From assembly GCF_019669965.1 (NCBI RefSeq), contig NZ_AP019781.1, positions 682,001 to 746,000 of the forward strand: DNA of 64,000 bases, in the 5' to 3' direction. This document shows positions 12,727-37,802 of the stretch, in pieces. The translations under genes and the position numbers were made by a program. Every line of letters starts with the position of its first letter. Position 1 is the stretch's first letter. This DNA comes from Methanoculleus chikugoensis. GTDB lineage: Archaea; Halobacteriota; Methanomicrobia; Methanomicrobiales; Methanoculleaceae. Under the pieces are notes generated by a model. The model made no database searches. It saw nothing but the letters and a program-made list of their open reading frames with translations, and was not told the origin of the DNA.

Positions 12727-12896
12727 CTTACTTCTCCAATCCTCCCGGCGCGTCTATTTACCCTGTAAGCGGTCCGGGCTCTCTCTTCTCAGTCGATGAT
12801 TCCATCTCGCCCGTCAAATACTTTCTGTCGGTGGGCCGCTCTCCGCCCGCGCAGATAAGATTCATATCCCGTGCCGACAATCCGCCTCCGATCGCC

Positions 12897-13889
12897 ATGC
12901 CCTGCTCGATCGTGACGGGGGATCTCTTTGCCGGCCACGACGCGCCCGGCCATCCCGAGTGCCAGGCACGTCTCGATGCGGCTCTCGCCGGGGTGCCGGC
13001 CGGCGCACGCCGCATAGCCCCGGAGCGGGCGACACCTGAGGACCTCGCACGGGTGCACACCGGGCGGCATATCGAAGGGATCCGCTCGTTCTGCCGGGAG
13101 TGCCCCCCGGGCCGGGCCCGTTACCTCGACCCGGACACCTACGTCACCTCCTGTTCCTTCGACGCGGCCCTCTATGCTGCCGGAGCCGCATGGCAGGCGG
13201 TGGAGCGGGCGCTTTCGGGCGAGCACTCTTTCGCTCTCGTCCGCCCGCCGGGGCACCATGCAACGCCCGACCGGGCGATGGGGTTCTGCCTCTTCAACAA
13301 CGCCGCCGTCGCGACGGCGAAAGCGCTCCGCGAGGTCGACCGGGTGGCGATCGTGGACTGGGACCTGCACCACGGGAACGGCACGCAGGCGATCTTTTAT
13401 GGGAGCGACCAGGTGCTCTTCTGCTCGGTTCACCAGGCGGGGATCTTCCCTGGTACCGGGTGGCCGGAGGAGCGGGGTGCCGGTCCGGGTGTCGGGTATA
13501 CCGTCAATGCGCCCCTCGAAGGGGGTTCAACCGGCGCCGACTACGCACTGGTCTTTCGCGAGGTCTTCGTCCCGGCGCTCCGGCGGTTCGACCCGGACGT
13601 CGTGGTGGTCTCGGCAGGCCAGGACGCACTCTTCGACGACCCGCTCGGCTCGATACACCTCCGGCCGGAAGGCTTCGGGGCACTGACCGGGATGCTCGTG
13701 GACGCGACCCCTGCATCTCTCGCCCTCGTGCTCGAAGGGGGTTACGGCCGGTCGCATGCGGGAGCGATCGGAGCGATCGTCGCCGCCCTCGACGGAGCCC
13801 GCTTCAGTCCCGCCGGCGGCGGGGAAAAGGCAAGCACCCGTCACCTCGTGGAGGCGTATGCCAGTCGCCGGGATGCCGTCCCGCTCTGA
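12897..13889 (+). CDS. Histone deacetylase-family (acetoin utilisation-like) deacetylase
   Basis: Zn-dependent amide hydrolase of 330 residues. Motifs in order: GHPECQARL, the tandem His of RPPGHHA, GFCLFNNAAVA, metal ligands in VDWDLHHGNGTQ, HQAGIFPGTG, the last metal Asp in VVVSAGQDALFDDPLG, and LEGGYG. All catalytic positions are present; Gln in AGQD replaces the common Phe. Substrate could be acetylated lysine, a polyamine or a small amide. ATG 12897 is preferred because the 22 residues before it are not family-like. Transcribed away from the GyrI-like gene. Confidence 0.88.
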   Translation: MPCSIVTGDLFAGHDAPGHPECQARLDAALAGVPAGARRIAPERATPEDLARVHTGRHIEGIRSFCRECPPGRARYLDPDTYVTSCSFDAALYAAGAAWQAVERALSGEHSFALVRPPGHHATPDRAMGFCLFNNAAVATAKALREVDRVAIVDWDLHHGNGTQAIFYGSDQVLFCSVHQAGIFPGTGWPEERGAGPGVGYTVNAPLEGGSTGADYALVFREVFVPALRRFDPDVVVVSAGQDALFDDPLGSIHLRPEGFGALTGMLVDATPASLALVLEGGYGRSHAGAIGAIVAALDGARFSPAGGGEKASTRHLVEAYASRRDAVPL

Positions 13890-13924: not shown

Positions 13925-14521
13925 ATGACCATGAACCGCATCTTCGATCAGATCCTGATGATTACGGGTGCTCTTCTCCTCCTCGCCCTTGCCGCCGCAC
14001 CGGCGGTCTCTGCCGTCGCAGTGTACCCGGGAAGCGATGTGACGCTCACGGGTACGAGCACGGGGAGCGATACTGTCTACCTCTTCGTGACCGGCCCGAA
14101 TCTCCCGCCCACCGGCGGGCGGCTTGACGATCCGCATACGGCCGTTCGCCCGGGAGATCCGGGGAGTTTCACGAGGGTGACGGTCGGTAGCGACGATCGC
14201 TGGACATACCGCTGGAGGACGGGCGAGGCCGGGCTCGACCCCGGGGCATACACCGTCTACGCCGTGGAAGCGCCCGTAGACCGCCGAAACCTCTCCGGCC
14301 ATGGCTACACGACCATCCCCGTCACCTTCGGGGTGCCTTCTGGAACCCCGGCTACGGGAACCGCCGTGCCTGCCACCTCGCCCGTGGAGACGGAGACGCC
14401 GACGGCGACGGTGCCGGCAGCCACGCCCTCCCCTGCGCCGACGACAGCAGCACCCCCCTTCGCCGCCCTCATGACGGCCGGTGCGGTGCTTGTTATGGCG
14501 ACCCTGTTCTTACGGCGCTGA
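13925..14521 (+). CDS. DUF3821-type secreted surface protein
   Basis: 198 residues: N-terminal signal peptide (hydrophobic run about residues 10-30, ending APAVSA), then a single domain with VYPGSDVTLTGTSTGSDTVY and LFVTGPNLPPTGG, which I recognise as the DUF3821 domain common in Methanomicrobiales. A Thr/Pro-rich linker (about 140-175) and a C-terminal hydrophobic anchor ending LFLRR follow. The end resembles a PGF-CTERM-type sorting tail without the PGF triplet (PPF instead). Starts at 13925 or 13931. Confidence 0.75.
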   Translation: MTMNRIFDQILMITGALLLLALAAAPAVSAVAVYPGSDVTLTGTSTGSDTVYLFVTGPNLPPTGGRLDDPHTAVRPGDPGSFTRVTVGSDDRWTYRWRTGEAGLDPGAYTVYAVEAPVDRRNLSGHGYTTIPVTFGVPSGTPATGTAVPATSPVETETPTATVPAATPSPAPTTAAPPFAALMTAGAVLVMATLFLRR

Positions 14522-14550: not shown

Positions 14551-14583
14551 AAATATATATTCATAAATGTACTATTTTGTACA
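14551..14583 (+). promoter_or_regulatory. ECF operon promoter with TRP-box-like operator
   Basis: AAATATATAT (14551-14560) is a TATA box. Just downstream, TGTAC (14568-14572) and GTACA (14579-14583) form an inverted repeat with a 6-base spacer; 14578-14583 reads TGTACA, the published consensus of the TRP box bound by archaeal TrpY. The site lies between the TATA box and the expected start site, so a bound repressor would block initiation. TrpY control is inferred. Confidence 0.5.
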
Positions 14584-14679
14584 ATGATGCTTGGTGTGGT
14601 CTGGGTCATCAGGTCTTCGTCCCGCTACACATACCCTGTCAAATCGCTCGTCGAACCTCAATAGTATGAGATTGATACC

Positions 14680-15246
14680 ATGAAATCGAGAGATATTGCA
14701 ATCGTCGGCATACTCCTTGCCATAGGGGCCATCATCAGGTACATGTCCCTCCTGATCCCCGGCCCCATCGTATCGAACCTCGTGATCGCCTTCTACTGCC
14801 TCGCCATCATCCTCGTCGCGCCCACGTTCCGCGAGGCGCTCGGGATCGGCGTCGTGGCGGGCGTCGTCTGTGCGCTTCTCAGCCACTCGATCTTCCCGCC
14901 CGCAAACCTCGTCAGCGAACCCATCGGTGCGGTCGTCTGCCTCGGGGTCTACCTGGTGCTGAGGGACCGGTTCTTCCTCGCCCCGGCGGTGACGACGCTT
15001 CTGGCCACCTTCGCGAGCGGGTTCTCGTTCATCCTTATTGCCATCCTTGCCGTGGCCCCGACCGTCCTTGGAAAGTTCGGAACCCTCGAGGCGTTCCTCG
15101 CGGTCACCGTGCCGATCGTCCTGATCACGGCGGCGGTCAATGCCGTCGTCGCACAGGCGCTCGAGATGCCCGCATCGCGGGCACTGATGCGGGGGACCCG
15201 GCAGGCGGCCCCGGGGCGGGATGCGAGGCCGGTTGATGAGTCCTGA
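14680..15246 (+). CDS. ECF transporter S component, possibly TrpP-like
   Basis: 188 residues with five or six hydrophobic segments starting at residue 5, the size and layout of an ECF substrate-binding (S) subunit. ALGIGVVAGVVCALLSHSIF and PPANLVSEPIGAVVCLGVYL resemble the S-component core. A loose likeness to TrpP plus the upstream TGTACA box suggests tryptophan, but the substrate is not settled by sequence alone. It overlaps the ATPase gene by 11 bases, so S, A-A and T form one operon. Confidence 0.78.
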   Translation: MKSRDIAIVGILLAIGAIIRYMSLLIPGPIVSNLVIAFYCLAIILVAPTFREALGIGVVAGVVCALLSHSIFPPANLVSEPIGAVVCLGVYLVLRDRFFLAPAVTTLLATFASGFSFILIAILAVAPTVLGKFGTLEAFLAVTVPIVLITAAVNAVVAQALEMPASRALMRGTRQAAPGRDARPVDES

Positions 15247-16762
15247 GACCGGACGGGAGACCGCCCTTTCCCTTCGGGGGGTCTCCTACACCTACCCCGG
15301 GTCGGAGACGCCGGCGCTCAACGGGATCAGCCTCGCTATCGCGAAAGGGGAGATCGTCTTCGTCACCGGCCCTACCGGGGCGGGCAAGACGACGCTCTGT
15401 CTTGCGGCGTCCGGCATCCTCCACCACGAGTACGGCGGCACACTGGAGGGGGCAGTCACCATCCTCGGCAGAAACGTCCGGGACTACCGGAACATGGGCG
15501 AGATCGGGAGAAACGTCGGCGTGGTCTTCGACGACGCCGAAGCCCAGCTCATCTTCACGACCGTCGAGGAGGAGGTTGCTTCCGGGCTTGAGAATCTCGG
15601 AATCCCCCGGGAGGAGATGCAGCAGAGGCTCCGCGCGGTGATGGAAGCGACCGGGATCGCCGGTCTCGCGGAGCGTGCCCCGCACACCCTCTCCGGGGGG
15701 CAGAAACAGCGGGTCGCCATCGCCGCAACCATCGCGCTCGGCACGAAGATCCTGATCCTCGACGAACCCACCGCCGAACTGGACGCGGAGGCGACCGCTG
15801 CGGTATCCGCTCTCCTCCGGAGGCTCTCCGGCGAGGGCACCACCGTGCTCATCGTCGAGCAGAAGATCGGCGAGCTCGCCGCCATCGCGGACAGGATGGT
15901 CGTCGTCGAAGACGGAGCGATCGCGAAGATCGGGTCTCCCGCCGAGATGATGCAGGAGCCCGTCCGGGAGCACCCGCCGGCCGGCAACGTCCGGCTTCCC
16001 GCACCGGCGGCAGCCTCCCCGGGAGTCCCCGTCATATCTGTTCGGGGGCTTGTCCACCGCTACGACGGGGTCGCGGCCATCAGGGGTCTCGATCTTGAGA
16101 TTGCTTCCGGTGAGATCGTGGCTGTCGCCGGGGATAACGGGTCCGGGAAGACGACGCTCGTCAAGCACTTCAACGGGCTGCTCCGTCCGACCGAAGGCAG
16201 CGTCACCGTCGACGGACTCGACGCCGGAATCGTCCCGATAGCACAACTCGCGCGTCACGTGGGCCTTGTCTTCCAGAATCCGGACACCATGCTCTTTGCC
16301 GAGACGGTGGCGGACGAGGTGGCGTTCGGTCTCAGAAACATCGACCCCGGCGCTTCTGAGGAGCCTGTCGACGCGGCGCTCCGCGAGGTGGGTCTCCTCC
16401 ACCGGAAGACGGCCTACCCGCGGTCGCTCTCGCGGGGCGAACGGCAGCGCCTGGCGATCGCCTGCGTCATCGCCATGAGGCCGAAGGTCATCGTGCTCGA
16501 CGAGCCCACGACCGGGCTCGACGCCCGTGAGTCGGAGAGGATCATGGGAATCCTCGCCCGCCTGCGGCAGGACGGCCACACAATCGTCATGGTGACGCAT
16601 GATATGCGTCTCGGAGCGGAGTATGCGGATCGCATCGTCAGGATGGAGCAGGGAAGAGTCATCCGCGACAGCAGAACCTATGAGGAAGAACCATGTCTGA
16701 AATCATGCAGTACGTCATCCGGGAGAGCGCCTTTCACCGCCTCCACCCGCTCACCAAACTGA
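15236..16762 (+). CDS. ECF transporter ATPase, two fused ABC domains (EcfA-A)
   Basis: 508 residues carrying two ABC ATPase domains in one chain. First domain: Walker A GPTGAGKTT, signature LSGGQKQR, Walker B ILILDEPTAELD. Second: GDNGSGKTT, LSRGERQR, VIVLDEPTTGLD. The domains are joined by an Ala/Pro-rich linker near residue 260. This replaces the EcfA1/EcfA2 pair of other organisms. The end overlaps ecfT by 70 bases and the last 20 or so residues (after RTYEEE) are not family-like. Confidence 0.9.
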   Translation: MSPETGRETALSLRGVSYTYPGSETPALNGISLAIAKGEIVFVTGPTGAGKTTLCLAASGILHHEYGGTLEGAVTILGRNVRDYRNMGEIGRNVGVVFDDAEAQLIFTTVEEEVASGLENLGIPREEMQQRLRAVMEATGIAGLAERAPHTLSGGQKQRVAIAATIALGTKILILDEPTAELDAEATAAVSALLRRLSGEGTTVLIVEQKIGELAAIADRMVVVEDGAIAKIGSPAEMMQEPVREHPPAGNVRLPAPAAASPGVPVISVRGLVHRYDGVAAIRGLDLEIASGEIVAVAGDNGSGKTTLVKHFNGLLRPTEGSVTVDGLDAGIVPIAQLARHVGLVFQNPDTMLFAETVADEVAFGLRNIDPGASEEPVDAALREVGLLHRKTAYPRSLSRGERQRLAIACVIAMRPKVIVLDEPTTGLDARESERIMGILARLRQDGHTIVMVTHDMRLGAEYADRIVRMEQGRVIRDSRTYEEEPCLKSCSTSSGRAPFTASTRSPN

Positions 16763-17478
16763 TCTTTGCGGCCGTCGTCGTTGTCCTCGCGGTGCTGACG
16801 AGCGATACCGCGATGCTCGCGGTTCTCGCCGGAGCGGTCGTAGCGGTGGCGATAGCGAGCGGACTCGCCCGCGATCTCCTCCGCCAGGTTCCGCTGCTGC
16901 TCATGCTCGCGGTGAGCCTGCTCGCCCTTACCATCCTCACCATCAGGAGCGGTGAGGTCATCGGTTACCTGGTTCCGCAGTCGGTCCCGGTCATCGGCGG
17001 GGCGTTGCCTGTCACGGCGGGAGCGATCGACCTTGCGCTCGCGATGTCGCTTCGGTTCGCCGCGATGCTCTTTGCGTTCCAGCTCCTGATCATATCGACC
17101 CAGCCGCGCGACCTCGTCCACGTCATGGACCGCCTCAGGATGCCGGTCGACTACACCCTCATGCTCCTGATCGCGCTCCGGTTCATCCCGAGCCTGCAGC
17201 TCGAGGGGAAGCGGATCCACGAGGCGCAGCTTGCCCGCGCCTACAACCCGGGGAACGGCCTTGCCGGAAAGATACGGGGGCTCTTCCCCATCATCATCCC
17301 GTTGGTCTCGAACTCGCTCGGGAAAGCCACGATCCTCGGGCTGACGATCGATCTCCGCGGCTACCGTTCCGGCAGGCGGACGCCGATGCGCGACCTTGCT
17401 CCCGGCCGGGCCGACGTCGCCGGGATCTGCTGCATGGGCCTTGTGGTCGCAGGGTATTTGGCCGTGCTGCTCGTATAA
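16693..17478 (+). CDS. ecfT: ECF transporter transmembrane component T
   Basis: 261 residues, with an N-terminal amphipathic part and hydrophobic segments at about 25-85 and 105-140. LHPLTKLIFAAVVVVLAVLT, the coupling helix AQLARAYNPGNG and the C-terminal LTIDLRGYRSGRRTPMR are EcfT hallmarks (an ARG-type motif appears as ARAYN). Couples the ATPase to the S component. Starts inside the ATPase gene; ATG 16693 matches the family N terminus. Confidence 0.9.
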   Translation: MSEIMQYVIRESAFHRLHPLTKLIFAAVVVVLAVLTSDTAMLAVLAGAVVAVAIASGLARDLLRQVPLLLMLAVSLLALTILTIRSGEVIGYLVPQSVPVIGGALPVTAGAIDLALAMSLRFAAMLFAFQLLIISTQPRDLVHVMDRLRMPVDYTLMLLIALRFIPSLQLEGKRIHEAQLARAYNPGNGLAGKIRGLFPIIIPLVSNSLGKATILGLTIDLRGYRSGRRTPMRDLAPGRADVAGICCMGLVVAGYLAVLLV

Positions 17479-37660: not shown

Positions 37661-37802
37661 TTGTCGATTGCACAGAATTGTATACTTATCTTGCCTCTCC
37701 TGCCGTAACATGAGAATAGCAAAAGTTTGTTATTTTGTGCTACGTATTTTTCCCCGATCGCTCCCGCTCTCCGACGATCGGTACCGTGTATATGCAGTGC
37801 AG

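Follow-up and report, generated by a model that had tools for sequence, protein, structure and literature searches.

A conserved paired operator joins an ECF importer of methanogens to the trp operon and suggests tryptophan or a close indole compound as the substrate

The 64-kb stretch of DNA analysed here (the window) carries an importer operon on the forward strand that encodes a TrpP-like ECF S component of 188 aa (14680-15246), a fused double ECF ATPase, A1A2 (15236-16762), and a T component of the CbiQ family (16693-17478). The ATPase exceeded the cut-offs of TIGR04520 and TIGR04521 and matched PF00005 in two stretches, and the T component matched PF02361 (1.4e-26). ATPases and T component are found in the operon of the S component (15236-17478), which places the system among group I ECF transporters. 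The gene further upstream (12831-13889) encodes a histone-deacetylase-family protein (PF00850, 8.5e-83), and after it comes a surface-protein-like ORF that ends at 14521. The importer promoter beyond it consists of a TATA box, TATATA (14554-14559, forward strand), and an operator, TGTACTATTTTGTACA (14568-14583, no strand assigned), in which two TRP-box-like hexamers lie with their centres 10 bp apart; a small leader ORF on the forward strand, MMLGVVWVIRSSSRYTYPVKSLVEPQ followed by a stop codon (14584-14664), precedes the S gene. The importer is present in 179 of 232 genomes of the methanogen class.

The assignment of the S component draws on a structural model and on its orthologues. The window protein, which is 97% identical to the Methanoculleus chikugoensis S component, gave an AlphaFold2 model (pLDDT 87.5) whose top solved matches are all ECF S components (Z scores of 17.1 for PanT, 6zg3; 15.1 for 4hzu_S; 13.9 for ThiT), followed by MreD (11.5), a protein that has the S fold as well (PMC11109136), and by unrelated folds at about 8. 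The predicted fold is that of an S component, and this fold does not give the substrate. A search of solved structures with the sequence of the window protein returned nothing useful, and the protein taken alone matched no family in Pfam or NCBIfam, PF17099 (TrpP) included. PF17099 matched 31 of the 41 members of the orthologue alignment at E values up to 0.01 (best 1.3e-13), and in four of ten relatives tested the match ran end to end above the gathering score (27.2 bits). Membership of the orthologous group in the TrpP family is therefore good, and the silence of Pfam and NCBIfam on the window protein would mislead if read without its orthologues. The loose resemblance to TrpP proposed in the preliminary description thus holds at the level of the family, the window protein itself having no Pfam match. 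Two variations on the operon were observed among relatives: in six loci the S component and double ATPase form a single frame of about 650-720 aa, an apparent fusion, and in eight others tandem S genes precede one ATPase/T set. The first tandem copy often has an operator of its own, so that one motor may serve two related substrates.

The promoter had been described as holding an exact TGTACA at 14578-14583 and a near-exact copy at 14568-14573, right after the TATA box, and the hexamer had been taken for a TRP box. The positions are confirmed by the sequence, the near-exact copy reading TGTACT, and by conservation: in the regions upstream of the importer orthologues of about 30 relatives from the same genus and family, the TATA box, at a fixed distance 5' of the operator, and the pair of hexamers are mostly kept and the rest of the leader has diverged. 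Wider sampling of the class (80 named loci) found the pair persisting as TGTAYA-N4-TRTACA at importer promoters of Methanoculleus, other Methanomicrobiales and Methanosarcina, across many genera. Because the exact hexamer TGTACA is lost outside the genus, the conserved unit is this 16-bp pair, 10 bp from centre to centre, and not the hexamer; the element seen as a TRP box is real and conserved, and it is only as a unit that the hexamer does not stand.

Counts in the 64 kb lead to the same distinction, single TGTACA being found six times against 3.1 expected, so that a lone hexamer carries no meaning, and the pair TGTAC-N6-GTACA twice against 0.09 expected. The second copy of the pair (site 5477) falls where a coding frame begins and was set aside. 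That a hexamer should stand by chance before a vitamin importer would agree with the frequency of lone TGTACA, which is no commoner than chance, and with the fact that ECF importers are mostly vitamin carriers; it is nonetheless very improbable, being contradicted by conservation of the operator across the class and opposed by the footprinting, the fixed spacing, the site held in common with the trp operon and the TrpP family of the S component.

The usual archaeal distance from TATA box to start puts the expected transcription start near 14582-14584, where the second hexamer ends, and a protein bound to the operator would therefore be expected to block RNA polymerase. The leader matched no family in Rfam. 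Separately, an element resembling TAGATCGATCTATGTACGTACATGTACA recurs in five loci from several Methanoculleus genomes, with gcagaataagagaacggagagca after it and surroundings rich in GCAGCA/GCTGC; TAGATCGATCTATGTACGTACATGTACA was considered as a second operator motif class and rejected as part of this other element.

The preliminary description had suggested looking for TGTACA-type sites before trp genes, and conserved paired sites were found there. In the genome to which the window belongs (2.62 Mb), searched for the operator by patterns, five sites have at most one mismatch, and three of the five stand in front of the trp operon, the importer and a gene for an AMP-forming acyl-CoA ligase; most low-mismatch sites elsewhere in the genome fall within coding frames and were discounted. 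A matrix built from importer promoters only, including those of importer operons that begin with the ligase gene, scored 21.0 before the trpB2-led trp operon of this genome, the sole match of at least 7 in that 16 kb. The site reads TGTATATATGTGTTCA, and its position, -32, is conserved: across the class (n = 70) trpB2 promoters typically carry TGTATATATTTRTACA about 32 nt before the start codon. Scores of at least 16 on the sense strand were reached by 31 of the 70 trpB2 promoters against 0.1% of shuffles, and the reversed matrix gave none; the first half-site coincides there with the TATA box, and conservation at the trp site is therefore partly that of the promoter, although the second half, TRTACA, does not coincide with it. 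Ligase promoters reached the same threshold in 22 of 42 cases against 0% of shuffled sequences, with the site at or near -49 throughout Methanoculleus and present in part of other families.

About 1 Mb from the same loci gave a background of 7 matches of at least 16 per Mb. Among the matches listed at 18 or above, five in number, three stand before the first of tandem S copies. Another of those listed, in Methanocalculus taiwanensis, precedes the S gene by about 4.1 kb and, by position alone, falls at the place taken by trpB2 in Methanocalculus-type genomes. A site at 37669-37684 of the window (score 12), between mcrB and formylmethanofuran-dehydrogenase-like genes, is probably due to chance, and the regions upstream of iorA hold no consistent operator site. 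The importer, the trp operon and the ligase are thus three targets of one operator. Given that the operator of the importer is that of the trp operon, uptake of tryptophan, or of a close indole relative, and tryptophan synthesis are very probably switched on and off together.

As to the protein that binds, a trpY homologue had been named as a requirement of the tryptophan reading, and the genome encodes one TrpY-family protein of 167 aa (G000:C1:1711256-1711744; NF053754 TrpY_fam, 210 bits against a cut-off of 180), with an ACT-like C-terminal half. Of 106 well-assembled genomes of the class, 104 have exactly one copy of the homologue. Both this co-occurrence and the half-site, which is that of the TRP box of Methanothermobacter TrpY (TGTACA, as Xie and Reeve are said to have reported in 2005), speak against the unlikely alternative that the operator marks a trp regulon bound by some other regulator. 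What that alternative can draw on is that the homologue is unlinked to its targets, that its own promoter in this genome has no good operator match and that TrpY homologues can serve other roles (PMC6737238). TrpY binds TRP boxes and its Thermococcus homologue does not control trp (PMC6737238); NF053754 is a family name, and a TrpY homologue need not regulate trp. The trpY promoters of five relatives match the operator fairly well at about -34, where the match overlaps the TATA box; this weakly hints at autoregulation in some relatives and not in the window genome, the TATA box being a confounder of this match.

The presence of the ligase in the regulon bears on the substrate. Because ligase and importer have the operator in common and, in some lineages, belong to one operon, an aryl acid such as indoleacetate is possible as the substrate. 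In Methanocalculus, Methanocorpusculum and Methanimicrococcus the ligase gene comes ahead of S-AA-T, and it is this gene that the operator precedes. The two Methanimicrococcus loci, with best operator scores of 11.4 and 19.1, keep ligase-S-AA and an operator-like site in a gut clade most of whose members are reported to be without synthesis of aromatic amino acids, tryptophan among them (PMC11362671). In Methanocalculus-type genomes trpB2 and the S gene are on one strand, with trpB2 some 3-4 kb further upstream. One Methanocalculus locus (L159:5298-11294) has genes for a NAD-kinase-like protein, acyl-CoA ligase, S, AA, T and a KaiC-like ATPase in a row, and in related genomes trpB2 is found just upstream of such a cluster.

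Under the same regulon, then, the importer might instead carry indole-3-acetate or another arylacetate, which the ligase would convert to its CoA thioester, indolepyruvate ferredoxin oxidoreductase (IOR) would carboxylate to indolepyruvate, and transamination would turn into tryptophan. We regard this as possible, if doubtful. Of 106 genomes, 98 encode a ligase orthologue, preceded by the operator in Methanoculleus and others; three lineages have the enzyme in one operon with the importer. Its nearest solved relatives are 4-coumarate:CoA ligase and feruloyl-CoA synthetase, and the IOR alpha subunit is found in 106 of 106 genomes. Members of the TrpP family, however, are annotated for tryptophan, IOR itself is without the operator, and aryl acids may enter the cell by diffusion. 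The substrate of the ligase, moreover, is not readable from its sequence: NCBIfam gives only generic acyl-CoA ligase families, all below cut-off, and for this reason activation of an arylacetate that would feed IOR is put forward as a hypothesis.

The reading that we prefer, with a probability of roughly 0.78, is that the operator belongs to a tryptophan regulon under TrpY-type repression and that the importer takes up tryptophan or a close indole compound. The tryptophan reading of the preliminary description is upheld by the shared, conserved operator, the sites at the trp operon, the TrpY homologue and the TrpP orthologues; the TrpY homologue as binder, repression as the mode of action and tryptophan as substrate are what we infer to be most likely. 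A tryptophan-loaded repressor, most likely the TrpY-family protein, would bind the two hexamers, one helical turn apart, and with its operator overlapping the transcription start would shut the S-AA-T operon when tryptophan is plentiful. Through the common operator the trpB2-led trp operon, the importer and the ligase, as a side route, would be repressed jointly. When the operon is open, import of tryptophan or a close indole compound would spare costly synthesis, indoleacetate being the main alternative cargo.

The leaders of many relatives may hold a further layer of control. Between operator and S gene these relatives have 120-300 nt with a small ORF that ends in Trp codons; it begins 0-3 nt after the operator in Methanoculleus and Methanofollis, and is then nearly leaderless, and somewhat later in loci of the Methanolinea/Methanoregula type. 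Trp stands among the last six residues of such an ORF in 31 of 43 leaders of at least 120 nt, against a mean of 5 and a maximum of 11 in shuffles, and in 28 of 35 when ORFs from the first ATG were taken, in which Trp makes up 15.2% of the last six residues and 1.4% of the rest; these counts are not independent of descent. Variation in the Methanoculleus leader ORF is 0.235, 0.226 and 0.466 at codon positions 1, 2 and 3, as in coding sequence. The endings differ between lineages (QPRWRPY, HWRW, CWQWRLH and FPVLEPW, each followed by the stop codon, and LPHW), a pattern that favours repeated retention of Trp codons over retention of one DNA word. Nine loci were noted in which the Trp-codon end of the leader ORF is conserved.

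In the clade of the window the leader is 80-105 nt long and the Trp-codon end is absent. The window ORF has a single Trp, at residue 7, lacks the Trp-rich end of its relatives (PRWRPY and stop) and is probably a decayed remnant of their Trp-terminated leader peptide. Single folds of ten leaders gave no evident common RNA structure, and neither terminator nor antiterminator was identified in the leaders. We tentatively propose, at somewhat less than even odds, that in many Methanomicrobiales ribosome stalling at these Trp codons tunes expression of the importer as a second control by tryptophan, lost in the clade of the window. We know of no leader-peptide attenuation in Archaea; a full-text literature search, weak evidence on such a point, had no example among the matches listed.

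Taken together, these results give both a class of substrate and a likely regulator to an importer of which the window member has no match to a curated family. With them the archaeal tryptophan regulon would come to include uptake and an acyl-CoA ligase, and they suggest that these methanogens salvage tryptophan or indoleacetate from the communities around them. The Trp-terminated leader peptides of the relatives make archaeal leader-peptide control directly testable and, if the proposal is true, the leader ORFs would constitute an attenuation-like leader-peptide system in Archaea.

Among known systems, TrpY and the TRP box of Methanothermobacter thermautotrophicus (trpEGCFBAD, trpB2) have in common with the present one the half-site TGTACA, trp targets that include trpB2 and a TrpY-family protein. 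Here, in contrast, the hexamers are paired 10 bp apart in a predicted binding site defined across the Methanomicrobiales, and the targets add the importer and the acyl-CoA ligase. TrpP (YhaG; PF17099) is matched end to end by several orthologues above the gathering score, although the present family is archaeal, has a fused ATPase and a T component dedicated to it and includes a window member below detection. Group I ECF transporters, with their dedicated S-A-A-T operons, are alike in gene set and fold, but here S component and ATPase share one frame in several relatives and S copies stand in tandem in others. As in bacterial trpL attenuation and TnaC, relatives have a short, conserved, Trp-ended ORF before a Trp-related gene; unlike those systems this one is archaeal, has no identified terminator or antiterminator and is absent from the clade of the window.
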